Positions 1,245 through 8,886 of a DNA stretch of 64,000 nt are shown one piece after another. How positions within the stretch are numbered: the stretch's first letter is position 1; each line of letters opens with the position of its first letter. The DNA comes from Streptomyces sp. V3I8. GTDB taxonomy: Bacteria > Actinomycetota > Actinomycetes > Streptomycetales > Streptomycetaceae. The notes under the pieces are model-generated. The model was given only the letters and a program-made list of their open reading frames with translations. It ran no database searches and had not been told where the DNA came from. Location of the stretch: positions 8,308,001 through 8,372,000 of the forward strand of contig NZ_JAUSZL010000002.1 of the NCBI RefSeq assembly GCF_030817535.1, given 5' to 3'. The position numbers were made by a program, and so were the translations under genes.

Positions 1245-3530
1245 CTAGACCGGCCGCAGCCACACCGTCGCCAGCGGCGGCAGGGTGAGCCGCACGCAGG
1301 CCGCCCATCCCTGCCACCCCTCCGTGTCCGCCTTGACCGGCGCGGTGCGGGTGACCCCGCTGCCGCCGAAGCACGACGCGTCGGTGTTCAGGACCTCCCG
1401 CCAGGCGGGCACGTGGTCGGGAACACCCAGCCGGTAGTCGTGCCGCACCACGGGCGAGAAGTTGGACACGGCCAGCAGCGGCGACCCGTCGGCGGCGTAC
1501 CGCAGGAAGGCGAACACGTTGTCCTCCGCCGCGTCCCCGGCGACCCAGGCGAACCCGGCGGGAGAGGTGTCCCGCTCCCAGAGCGCGCGCGTGGCCCGGT
1601 ACTGCGTGTTGAGCTCGCGCACGAGGTTGCGGACGCCCCGGTGGTCGGCCTCGGCCCCGTACGCCGGATCCAGCAGTCCCCAGTCGGGGCCGTGCGCCTC
1701 CGACCACTCGGCGCCCTGTGCGAACTCCTGCCCCATGAAGAGGAGCTGCTTGCCGGGGTGGGCCCACATGAAGCCCAGGTAGGCACGGTGGGTGGCGCGC
1801 CGCTGCCACCAGTCGCCGGGCATCTTCGACACCAGCGCCTGCTTGCCGTGCACGACCTCGTCGTGCGAGATGGGCAGCACGTAGTTCTCGCTGTACGCGT
1901 ACACCATCGAGAACGTCATCTCGTGGTGGTGGTACTTGCGGTGCACCGGCTCGTGGCGGATGTACTCCAGCGAGTCGTGCATCCAGCCCATGTTCCACTT
2001 CAGCCCGAAGCCGAGACCGCCGGAGTCGGTGGAGCGGGTCACCCCCTCCCAGGCGGTCGACTCCTCCGCGATGGTCACGATCCCCGGCACCCGCCGGTAC
2101 AGCGTCGCGTTCATCTCCTGCAGGAACGCCATCGCGCCGAGGTCCTCCCGGCCGCCGGAGGCGTTGGGGGACCACTGCCCGTCCTCGCGCGAGTAGTCGA
2201 GGTAGAGCATGGAGGCGACGGCGTCGACCCGCAGCCCGTCGATGTGGAACTCCTCGCACCAGTACACGGCGTTGGCGACGAGGAAGTTGCGCACCTCCAC
2301 CCGGTCGAAGTCGAACTCGTAGGTGCCCCAGTCAGGATGCTCGGCACGCCGGTCGTCCCCGGGCTCGTACAGCGGCTCCCCGTCGAAGCGGGCCAGCGCC
2401 CAGTCGTCCTTGGGGAAGTGCGCGGGCACCCAGTCCATGATCACGCCGATGCCGGCCCGGTGCAGGGCGTCGACGAGGTACTTGAAGTCGTCGGGGGTGC
2501 CGAGGCGTGAGGTGGGTGCGTAGAAGCCGGTGACCTGGTAGCCCCAGGAGCCGCCGAAGGGGTGCTCGGCGACCGGCATCAGCTCGACGTGCGTGAAGCC
2601 GAGGTCGCTGACGTACGCGGGCAGCTCCTCCGCCAGCTGACGGTAGGTCAGGCCCGGCCGCCAGGAAGCGAGATGCACCTCGTAGACCGAGAACGGCGCC
2701 TCGTGCACCGGCCGGTCGCCACGGTGCGCCAGCCAGTGCGCGTCGTTCCACTCGTAGTGCGAGGCCGTGACGACGGACGCCGTGTCCGGCGGCACCTCGG
2801 TGCGGCGCGCCATCGGGTCCGCCTTGAGGAACCGGGTCCCGTGGCGGGAGGTGATCTCGAACTTGTACCGCGCGCCCTCGCCGACACCGGGCAGGAACAG
2901 CTCCCACACCCCGGCCGCGCCCAGCGAGCGCATCGGGAACTGCGTGCCGTCCCAGAAGGTGAAGTCCCCGGCGACCCGCACCCCCCGCGCGTTCGGCGCC
3001 CACACCGTGAAACGGGTGCCCGCCACACCCTGGTGCTCCATCGGCTCGGCGCCGAGCGCCCGCCACAGCTGCTCGTGCCGGCCCTCCCGGACCAGGTGCA
3101 GATCGAGCTCGCCGAGCGCCGGCAGGAAGCGGTACGGGTCCTCCACCTCCAGCTCGACACCGCCCGCGTACCTGACCAGCAGGGTGTACTCGGGCACGGA
3201 GTCCAGGGGCAGTACCCCCGAGAAGAGGCCGTCGCCCTCGCTGTCCAGCACCATCCGCAGCCCGTCGGGCAGCGACACCGCCACGGATTCGGCGAACGGC
3301 CGCAGCGCACGGACGACGACGCCGTCCGGCACCGGATGCGCCCCCAGCAGCGCGTGCGGGTCGTGATGGGTCCCCGACAGCAGCCGCTCCCGGTCCGCCC
3401 CCTCCAGCGAGAACACCGGCTCGTGCCCGCCGGGCCCGCCCGGCACCGCCTCGACCGGACCCGTCCCGGCAGGTCCGACGTCCTTGGACGGCGGCGGGGT
3501 CAGGGGTACGGAGATATTCCGGGATGCCAC
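1245..3530 (-). CDS. glgB: 1,4-alpha-glucan branching enzyme GlgB
   Basis: A 761-aa GH13 enzyme that introduces alpha-1,6 branches into linear alpha-1,4-glucan. N-terminal beta-sandwich (CBM48-like) modules precede the TIM barrel. Catalytic-site motifs are visible: [12 protein letters not shown] (nucleophile Asp), [10 protein letters not shown] (acid/base Glu) and [10 protein letters not shown] (transition-state Asp). The GTG start at 3530 is chosen because AAGGAGG lies 7 bases upstream and the mature family N-terminus follows; the open frame runs further upstream only inside mak. It is the last gene of the glgE-treS-mak-glgB operon, starting 4 bases after mak ends. Length matches actinobacterial GlgB, which carries the extra N-terminal domain. 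Confidence 0.96.
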
Positions 3531-3534
3531 GTTT

Positions 3535-4944
3535 TCAGCCTCCTTGAGCGCTGTGGAAGGAAGGGACCGGCGTGTGCGGACCGCCGGATGACGCAGGGTG
3601 CTGCTGGGCCAGACGGGCGATCGCCGCCATCGGCACGGGCAGCCAGTCGGGCCGGTGCCGCGCCTCGTACAGGGCCTCGTACACGGCCCGGTCCGTCTCG
3701 TACGCGCGCAGCAGCTCGGGCTGCGCGCGCGGATCCCACCGCGCCTGGCCGGCGTACCCGGCGCAGTAGGCGTCCCGGCAGCGACGCGCCCACTCCGGGC
3801 GCCACGGGTGGCGGCTGCGGGCGGCGTAGTCGAAGGAGCGCAGCATCCCCGCGACATCGCGTACGGGGGACTGCGGCTGCCGGCGTTCGGCGATGGGACG
3901 CGCCGGCTCGCCCTCGAAGTCGATGACGGACCACCGCTCCCCGGCCCACAGCACCTGACCGAGGTGCAGGTCGCCGTGGATGCGCTGCACCGGGCGGCCC
4001 GAGTCGAGGGCGGCGAGCTCGTCGAAGGCGCCCCGCAGCCCCTCGACGTAGGGGAGCAGTTCCGGCACCGCACGACCGGTCGAGTCCAGCCGTTCGATCA
4101 TCGCCGCCGCGAGTCGCCTGCTCCCGTGCCCGGCCGGCGCGCCGAGGGCGAACGCCGCGGCCAGCGCGACGTGCACCTCGGCGGTCGCCCGCCCCAGCTC
4201 GTACGCCTCGTCCGTGAAGTCCCGGCCCGCGGTGAGCGCTTCGAGCGCCAGGGTCCACCCGTCGACGGCGTCCGGCAGGAACGGCTGGAGCACACCGAGC
4301 GTCGCCGCCTGCGGCTCCGAGGTCCGGAACCAGGCCACGGGGGCCGGGACACGGGTGCACCCCTGGCGGGCCAGGGCCCAGGGCACCTCCAGGTCCGGGT
4401 TGATGCCGGGCTGGACCCGCCGGAAGACCTTGAGGATGTACGCGTCGCCGTACACCAGCGAGGAGTTGGACTGCTCGGCGTCGAGGAGGCGCGGTGCCAG
4501 ACCGGTGGGGACGGACACCTTCGGGTCCCGCTCGAACCGCAGGGGGCCCGCCGTCCCCGCGGTGCGCAGCCGTTCCAGGAGCAGGTCGGCCGACCGCGGT
4601 TCCTGGAGGGCGTCGTACACCGTCAGGCCGGCCAGCGGCCCCCGGCTCGCCCGTCCGATGCGGGCATGGGCCAGCCGAGGGGGCAGCACGTCCCCGACGC
4701 CGAGGAGCAGTTGGTAGCAGTCGCCGGGGCGTGACGGGGAGGAGCCCTGCCCGGTGCAGACCAGCAGGTGCAGACACGCCGGGTGCAGCTCTGTCACCGA
4801 AAGCAGTGTCAGTTCCGTGACCCGGCGGCCCTTGCCCGCGAACCAGCGCTGTTCGGGCAGCCACGCCCGGAGCATGTCGGCGAGCGATGTCAGCAGATGA
4901 GCCGGAGCGTGGCCGCTGGGGCGGGGTGAGACGACCTTGCGCAT
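3535..4944 (-). CDS. mak: Maltokinase (Mak/Pep2)
   Basis: A 469-aa kinase that phosphorylates maltose with ATP to maltose 1-phosphate, the donor for GlgE. The aminoglycoside-phosphotransferase-like active site is visible as [13 protein letters not shown] (catalytic Asp) and VIDFEGEP (metal-binding Asp). The N-terminus, with [13 protein letters not shown], is characteristic of this family. The ATG at 4944 has GGAGG 7 bases upstream. It sits 14 bases after treS and 4 bases before glgB. In mycobacteria, where the pathway was defined, TreS and Mak form a complex; that is family knowledge and not visible here. Confidence 0.95.
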
Positions 4945-4958
4945 GACGACCCCTCCTT

Positions 4959-6688
<1,730 letters not shown>

Positions 6689-6692
<4 letters not shown>

Positions 6693-8738
6693 GTGGGTGA
6701 CCCTCCGGTGGGCGGTGAGGACGGTCGCAGGACGCTCATGACGTGCGCGGGCCGCTCTCCCGGCGTGAGGCGCACGTAGTTGGTCCTGCCCCAGTGGTAT
6801 GTCTCGCCGGAGAGCTCGTCGCGCACCGGCACCGACGCGTGCCAGTCCAGGCCGAGTCGTGGCATGTCCAACGAGACCGTGGCCTCCTGGGTGTGGTGGG
6901 GGTCGAGGTTCACGACTACCACGACCGTGTCGGAGCCGGTCCGCTTGCTGTACGCGATGACGGCGTCGTTGTCGGTCCCGTGGAAATGGACGTTCCGCAG
7001 ATGGCGGAAGGCCACGTGTTCCCGGCGGATCCTGTTGAGCGAACCGATGAGCGGCGCGATGGACGTTCCCGCCCGCTCGGCGGCCTCCCAGTCGCGCGGC
7101 CGCAACTGGTACTTCTCCGAGTCGAGGTAGTCCTCGGTGCCTGCCCTGGCCGCGGTGTTCTCGCACAGTTCGTATCCCGCGTACATTCCCCAGGACGGTG
7201 AGAGCGTCGCCGCCAGTACCGCGCGCAGTTCGAAAGCGGGCCGCCCGCCGTGCTGGAGGAATCCGGGCAGGATGTCCGGGGTGTTGACGAAGAAATTGGG
7301 CCGCATGTAGGCGGCCGCGTCACCTGAGAGCTCGGTGAGGTACTCGGTCAGTTCCTCTTTGGTGTTGCGCCAGGTGAAATACGTGTACGACTGCTGGAAT
7401 CCGACGCGTGCCAGGGCGTGCATGACCTCCGGACGGGTGAACGCCTCCGCCAGGAAGATCACGTCCGGGTCGGTTCGGTTGATGTCCGCGATCACCCGCT
7501 CCCAGAACATGACCGGTTTCGTGTGCGGATTGTCCACGCGGAAGATGCGTACGCCGTGCCCCATCCAGAACCGGAGAATGCCGAGCGTCTCCTGCACCAG
7601 GCCGGGCATGTCCGCGTCGAAGGCGATCGGATAGATGTCCTGGTATTTCTTCGGCGGGTTCTCCGCGTACGCGATCGTGCCGTCCGCCCGGTGCTGGAAC
7701 CACTCCGGGTGCTTCTCCACCCACGGGTGGTCGGGCGAGCACTGGAGCGCGAAGTCCAGGGCCACCTCGAGCCCCAGGGAGGCCGCGGTGCCCACGAACG
7801 CGTCGAAGTCGTCGATCGTGCCGAGGTCGGGATGGACGGTGTCGTGCCCGCCCTCCGGTGAGCCGATCGCCCACGGGACCCCGACGTCCTCGCGACCGGC
7901 CGAGAGGTTGTTGTCGGGGCCCTTGCGGAAGGTCGTGCCGATGGGGTGGACCGGCGGCAGGTACACCACGTCGAAGCCCATGGCGGCGATCGCGGGCAGC
8001 CGTGCCGCCGCGGTCCGGAACGTGCCGCTGACCGGCGGCTTCCCGGGCTCCACCACCGCGCCCTCCGAGCGCGGGAAGAACTCGTACCAGGAACCGAACA
8101 GCGCCCGCTCCCGCTCCACGAGGAGGGGGAGCGGCTCGGACCGGGTGAGGCGTTCCCGCAGGGGGTGCTCGGCGAACACCGCGTCCACGTCCGGCGTGAG
8201 GGCCGCGGCGAGACGGGAGGCCGGCGGACGGGTGTCGTCACGCAGGGCCTCCGCGGCGGTCAGCACCGCCGCCCGGCCCGCCTCGTGCGGCACCGCGGCG
8301 GCAGCACGCTCGTACAGGTCGGCGCCCTCCTCCAGGACCAGGCCCACGTCGATGCCGGCCGGGATCTTGATGCGCGCGGACCGGCGCCAGGCGGACACGG
8401 GGTCCGACCACGCCTCCACCCAGTAGCTCCAGTCGCCCACCGCCGTCGGGGTGACGTCGCCGCCCCAGCGGGTCGCTGCCGGGGGTGAGCTCCCGCATGG
8501 GGGTCCACGGTCCGGTACGCCCCTCGGGGTCGCACAGGACGACGTTCGCGGCGACCGCGTCGTGACCCTCTCCGAAGAGGGTGGCGGTGACCTGGAACGT
8601 CTCGCCCGGAACCGCCTTCGCCGGCCGGTTTCCGTGCTCGACGGCCGGACGGACGTCGACGACGGGGACTCGGCCGGTCGGAACGACGGGCTTGCGGCCG
8701 ACAGGGCGGACGCGGCCGTCGGCCAGGTTCTCGGTCAT
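6689..8738 (-). pseudogene. glgE: glgE, alpha-1,4-glucan:maltose-1-phosphate maltosyltransferase, with an apparent +1 frameshift
   Basis: GlgE extends alpha-1,4-glucans with maltosyl units from maltose 1-phosphate. The C-terminal 583 residues (8440-6689) are open and carry IFRVDNPHTKP (nucleophile) and IFLAEAFTRPEVM (acid). The family N-terminus is also clear (VPVVDVRPAVEHG, GETFQVTATLF, GPWTPMRELTPGSD) but in another frame, from the ATG at 8738 with GGAGG 8 bases upstream. The switch falls at a run of three G (plus strand, 8470-8472). With two G the protein reads GSDRWGGDVTP in place of GSDPLGRRRHP, then continues into VGDWSYWVEAW. The repaired protein would be 682 aa, normal for the family. 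This is either a true mutation or a one-base sequencing error. The unrepaired downstream frame lacks the N-terminal domain. Confidence 0.88.
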
Positions 8739-8822
8739 GGGATTCACCTCCGTCTTCGTTCTCGTTGTGGCTGTCCTGGTGCGTCGTCGACGCGGTACGT
8801 CACTGTCCTGCTGTGTCGTTCA

Positions 8823-8886
8823 CCGTCATGCCGTCATGCCGTCATGCCGTCATGCCGTCATGCCGTCATGCCGTCATGCCGTCATG
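8823..8886. repeat. Eight perfect tandem copies of CCGTCATG
   Basis: Eight uninterrupted 8-base units fill 64 bases between the DUF5133 gene and glgE, 85 bases upstream of the glgE ATG. On the minus strand each unit reads CATGACGG. The array begins inside the 3' end of the DUF5133 gene and supplies its stop codon (TGA, 8876-8874). Such arrays change copy number by replication slippage. Here that would alter the glgE leader or promoter spacing but not the DUF5133 reading frame. Confidence 0.97.

Follow-up and report, generated by a model that had tools for sequence, protein, structure and literature searches.

A frame break in one of two glgE genes of a Streptomyces assembly is probably an insertion error

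The assembled genome of Streptomyces sp. V3I8 (9.32 Mb in four contigs) contains two glgE genes, and the one in cluster 2 (glgE2) is split between two reading frames. We think that this frame break probably reflects a sequencing or assembly error that added one base. The extra base would have arisen as a technical insertion in the short G/C run at 8470-8472, and the strain itself most likely carries an intact glgE2 of 682 amino acids, as its relatives do. The original prediction had mentioned a base-calling error as the dull alternative to a true mutation. That alternative is now the best-supported explanation, because similar insertions turn up repeatedly in the assembly, including in core genes.

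The frame break in glgE2

The window that we analyzed is a stretch of 64,000 nucleotides (C2:8308001-8372000); positions are given within it unless stated otherwise. glgE2 lies on the minus strand, and comparing its reading frames with those of relatives places the junction between the two coding frames at 8468-8472 (Table 1). The frame break is confirmed as truly present in the assembled sequence. The listed open reading frame at 8238-8747 leaves the GlgE frame after piece 1 and ends at a stop at 8238, and the earliest start codon in the frame of piece 2 is a GTG at 8440. A profile search of the genome splits PF11896 across both pieces (positions 1-62 and 66-179; on the listed open reading frames, 1-62 and 78-179). 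The GlgE C-terminal domain (PF21702) is in the second frame. Each piece matches GlgE with an E-value of at most 1e-18; chance is ruled out as the source of this two-frame match. Piece 2 also matches the structure of S. coelicolor GlgE isoform 1 (3zss). The catalytic residues of S. coelicolor GlgE are Asp-394 and Glu-423 (PMC5076824), and D303 and E332 of piece 2 align with these two residues in 3zss, if we allow for a probable 20-residue offset due to a tag. Overall, the pieces contain the N/S domain, the C-terminal domain, and the catalytic residues that define GlgE.

Table 1. Features of cluster 2 in the window, and frame-breaking insertions elsewhere in the assembly (positions with an L number are within that locus).
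Feature	Position	Strand	Description
glgE2 piece 1, frame 1	8472..8738	-	89 codons, ATG at 8738; PF11896 positions 1-62
Frame break (glgE2 insertion)	8468..8472	-	+1 base versus relatives, within short run 8470-8472
glgE2 piece 2, frame 2	6689..8467	-	592 codons (8467 to 6692), stop at 6691-6689; PF11896, PF21702
Overlap of glgE stop and treS start	6689..6692	-	ATGA, from sequence
treS	4959..6692	-	Open, 577 aa; TIGR02456 (988 bits), Pfam
mak (maltokinase, pep2)	3535..4896	-	Open; Mak_N_cap and APH domains; TIGR02457 below its cut-off
glgB (branching enzyme)	1245..3534	-	Open; TIGR01515 (975 bits) in ORF 1245-4073
Tract near-identical to cluster 1	4997..6916		3 mismatches in 1,920 bases
tetR-like insertion (arm)	L121 about 3975		6/6 relatives
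ABC permease insertion (arm)	L129 about 470		6/6 relatives
Amidohydrolase-like insertion (arm)	L130 about 17469		6/6 relatives
dnaX insertion, +2 (core)	L175 about 3980		3 relatives compared of 8 retrieved
SurA-like insertion (core)	L229 about 19980		3/3 relatives
Malic enzyme insertion (core)	L247 about 7969		3/3 relatives
2Fe-2S subunit insertion (core)	L247 about 19970		3/3 relatives

The relatives with names belong to Streptomyces. The closest glgE that we found, from S. apricus SUN51 (93% DNA identity), is a single open frame of 682 amino acids. The original prediction had placed two halves of GlgE in different frames, with a break at 8470-8472, and had expected a normal 682-residue protein once one G was removed. 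The frame comparison bears out the description and its coordinates, and the S. apricus gene has the expected length. Cluster 2 runs glgE, treS, mak, glgB on the minus strand; the last three, which were thought to look intact, are indeed all open. We found no further disabling changes in glgE2, whose 592 codons after the break are open.

Upstream of glgE2, at 8823-8886, are eight perfect copies of the 8-base unit CCGTCATG. This repeat was not seen in the stretch that was read upstream of S. apricus glgE.

The original prediction also raised the possibility of ribosomal frameshifting. A programmed +1 shift would yield full-length GlgE2, and both frames do stay open beyond the break (for 228 and 270 bases), but long open second frames are common in high-GC DNA. 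Furthermore, the pieces of glgE lie in one frame at 109 of 113 glgE loci (not all of them independent, as some places are present twice, such as L005 and L034). The four exceptions are three overlapping copies of glgE2 itself (L002, L003, and L004) and L017, which is in one frame beside the break point and has its own break farther along. Among these 113 loci, no relative changes frame at the point corresponding to 8468-8472, and neither the break nor the site is conserved. According to PMC3711429, programmed frameshifts are recognized by conserved sites in gene clusters, while most isolated cases are due to mutation or to sequencing error. We therefore dropped recoding, which we consider extremely improbable.

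L017 and L158 represent the second cluster of another genome (G009), about 158 kb from a chromosome end. That cluster is broken at many points: glgE and treS contain many indels, among them several single-base deletions in runs of C, and the frames of glgB and a neighboring gene are broken as well. The genome's own cluster 1 is open. We asked whether this might be another instance of glgE loss and set it aside: it could be decay or poor assembly, and it is indistinguishable from a poorly assembled stretch.

Insertions elsewhere and the case for an error

We scored reading frames across 432 kb of the chromosome arm, three 400-kb core stretches, and 20 kb around the other glgE, and looked for places where the coding frame changes while both frames remain open. 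A loose rule gave nine candidates in the arm and six, three, and eight in the core stretches; on visual inspection of their peptides, most of these looked like gene boundaries or mobile elements. (Those set aside were a crcB pair, apparent gene boundaries, IS5-like and IS30-like transposases, an ABC gene with missing parts, and a few unclear candidates.) A strict rule, adopted only after the loose candidates had been inspected, gave nine hits in 1,652,000 bases of the genome. We compared eight of the nine with relatives; the ninth is an IS30-like transposase.

All eight compared breaks are insertions within sequence that contains only G and C. Seven are of one base and one, in dnaX, is of two bases; none is a deletion. 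If insertions and deletions were equally likely, eight of eight in one direction would have p of about 0.008. In six of the seven single-base cases, a run of G or C is lengthened. The exception is the amidohydrolase-like gene, so this insertion and the one in dnaX are not homopolymer cases. Four of the eight insertions are in the core stretches, in dnaX and in the genes for a SurA-like protein, a malic enzyme, and a 2Fe-2S subunit. In E. coli, dnaX is essential.

As controls, we applied the strict rule to 1,935,258 bases from 100 further Streptomyces loci. These loci are mainly glg neighborhoods rather than random DNA and overlap in part; they gave fewer hits than our genome, seven in all, six of them free of N and four of these six in L158. 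In 400 kb of S. apricus, there were five hits, none of them free of N. Alignment of the surroundings of the window with S. apricus was set aside as a gauge of assembly quality, because the stretches compared share little synteny beyond the glg neighborhood.

We observed that G/C insertions recur in this assembly and that, among the loci examined, the glgE2 break is confined to it; a technical origin is the most likely cause of the insertions. We prefer an error because real indels should include deletions and should spare core genes. Some findings count against an error: the run in glgE2 grows only from two bases to three, and the insertions in dnaX and the amidohydrolase-like gene lie outside homopolymers.

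Errors of this kind have been described. As reported in PMC4832174, a PacBio assembly of S. albus SM254 with a QV over 50 had 205 indels before Illumina polishing, nearly all in homopolymers of G or C. As in our assembly, these residual errors are short G/C indels that break otherwise intact genes. However, the cases that we compared are all insertions, and two lie outside homopolymers. Nanopore data speak against an error: for the assemblies in the rows of PMC12007338 that were considered, deletions outnumber insertions, whereas eight of eight compared breaks in our assembly are insertions.

We also considered that the strain might be a mutator that gains G/C bases, with all eight breaks real. 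This would account for their similar direction and composition, but several metabolic genes, together with the end of dnaX, would have had to be lost simultaneously, which makes this idea highly improbable. With eight compared breaks in 1.65 Mb, the assembly appears to carry at least one frame-breaking insertion per roughly 200 kb. Broken genes in this assembly deserve distrust, and the glgE2 break should not be presented as a loss of GlgE.

The intact glgE1 and the possibility of a real loss

The same genome encodes an intact glgE1 at C2:2,832,346, with an open frame of 842 amino acids and complete N/S and C-terminal domains. It is adjoined by treS, mak, and glgB (cluster 1). Judging from these sequences, the broken gene is a spare copy and the cell should not be short of GlgE. 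The original prediction had called for a genome-wide search for a second glgE, and had argued that a true mutation would need such a gene, suppression, or frameshifting. The second glgE turned up; the other two are unnecessary. Because glgE1 is intact, the metabolic paradox disappears and no suppressor or recoding is required.

Is it possible that a recent one-base insertion really inactivated glgE2 and was tolerated because glgE1 works? The extra base is present in the assembly, and glgE1 is intact. Also, S. coelicolor has two GlgE-pathway clusters, linked to two deposition phases, and in S. venezuelae, which has a single cluster, a glgE null mutant is viable, with delayed development on maltose (both from PMC5042117). 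Because that mutant is viable, loss of GlgE2 would not be expected to kill the cell.

The substitution patterns are mixed. In the 89 N-terminal codons, there are 0 synonymous and 4 non-synonymous changes on the glgE2 branch, versus 3 and 2 on the S. apricus branch; these counts lean towards relaxation and are too few to judge. For the C-terminal piece, we counted 20 synonymous and 12 non-synonymous changes on the glgE2 branch, versus 25 and 11 for S. apricus, so it appears to have no excess of amino acid changes. This apparent lack of decay in the C-terminal part argues against a real mutation, as does the absence of deletions among the eight compared breaks. Furthermore, it is difficult to believe that dnaX and the other core genes with similar insertions have truly been lost. 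We consider the true mutation in the original prediction to be unlikely, and an insertion error remains our preferred explanation.

If the break were real, ribosomes would read 89 codons in the GlgE frame and then continue out of frame to the stop at 8238. Translation of treS2 would probably be lower as well, given the ATGA overlap with the glgE stop, and reduced expression of treS2 would limit maltose 1-phosphate. In that case, the cell would have tolerated the loss of one gene of a duplicated cluster.

Mosaic similarity between the two clusters

The near-identical tract in Table 1 covers roughly 220 bases at the 3' end of glgE and all of treS apart from its final codons; its cluster 1 counterpart is in G000:C2:2824001-2844000 (L133). 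Over the next 300 bases of glgE past the tract, the clusters are just 67-70% identical. The remainder of glgE is 66-98% identical, depending on the 100-base window, and the mak stretch is 73% identical. Around the frame break, which falls outside the tract, the two copies share about 68% identity, and the frame of glgE1 is intact, so the break was not derived from the paralog.

Ten further two-cluster genomes, which are a biased set because they were picked when both copies appeared among the matches listed, are also mosaic: mostly, about 1 kb of the middle of glgE is 97-100% identical, and treS is similar in patches. Phylogenetic trees agree with this. Copies from the same genome are sisters for the middle of glgE in 9 of 11 genomes and for treS in 6 of 10, versus 0 of 11 for the 5' part of glgE, 0 of 10 for mak, 1 of 11 for glgB, and 2 of 11 for the end of glgE. 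(The broken G009 copy was omitted from the treS and mak trees.) In our genome, the copies pair for treS and the end of glgE, and not for the middle of glgE. Three more genomes among the named loci also show this pattern, which brings the total to 14 mosaic genomes of 14 examined that have two clusters.

Recurrent gene conversion seems to be the best explanation for these patterns. More specifically, we think it very likely that recurrent ectopic conversion keeps the clusters alike in treS and the catalytic part of glgE, while the 5' part of glgE and mak stay anciently diverged. If so, a single evolving catalytic core would be common to the stage-specific clusters, and lesions outside the converted tracts, such as the glgE2 break if it is real, would be beyond this kind of repair. 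Trees of whole glgE or whole treS genes would mislead about the history of the clusters.

Near-identical tracts may also break short-read assemblies. Among 120 matches listed, at least 10 GlgE proteins are named as partial, with 604-658 amino acids; perhaps these entries reflect contig breaks at the identical tract near the end of the gene.

Among the titles and abstract openings listed in a literature search, none concerns gene conversion in these clusters; the original papers on the duplicated clusters, from 1995 and 2000, are cited in PMC5042117. Concerted evolution is familiar from other duplicated bacterial genes, such as tuf and rrn. As with those genes, copies of the GlgE cluster within a genome are more alike than copies from different species. 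Unlike tuf and rrn, the likeness is confined to segments of two adjacent genes and has sharp borders. Our genome also resembles S. coelicolor, whose duplicated and stage-specific clusters are described in PMC5042117, in that it has two glgE-treS-mak-glgB clusters; it differs in that the assembled frame of one glgE is broken.
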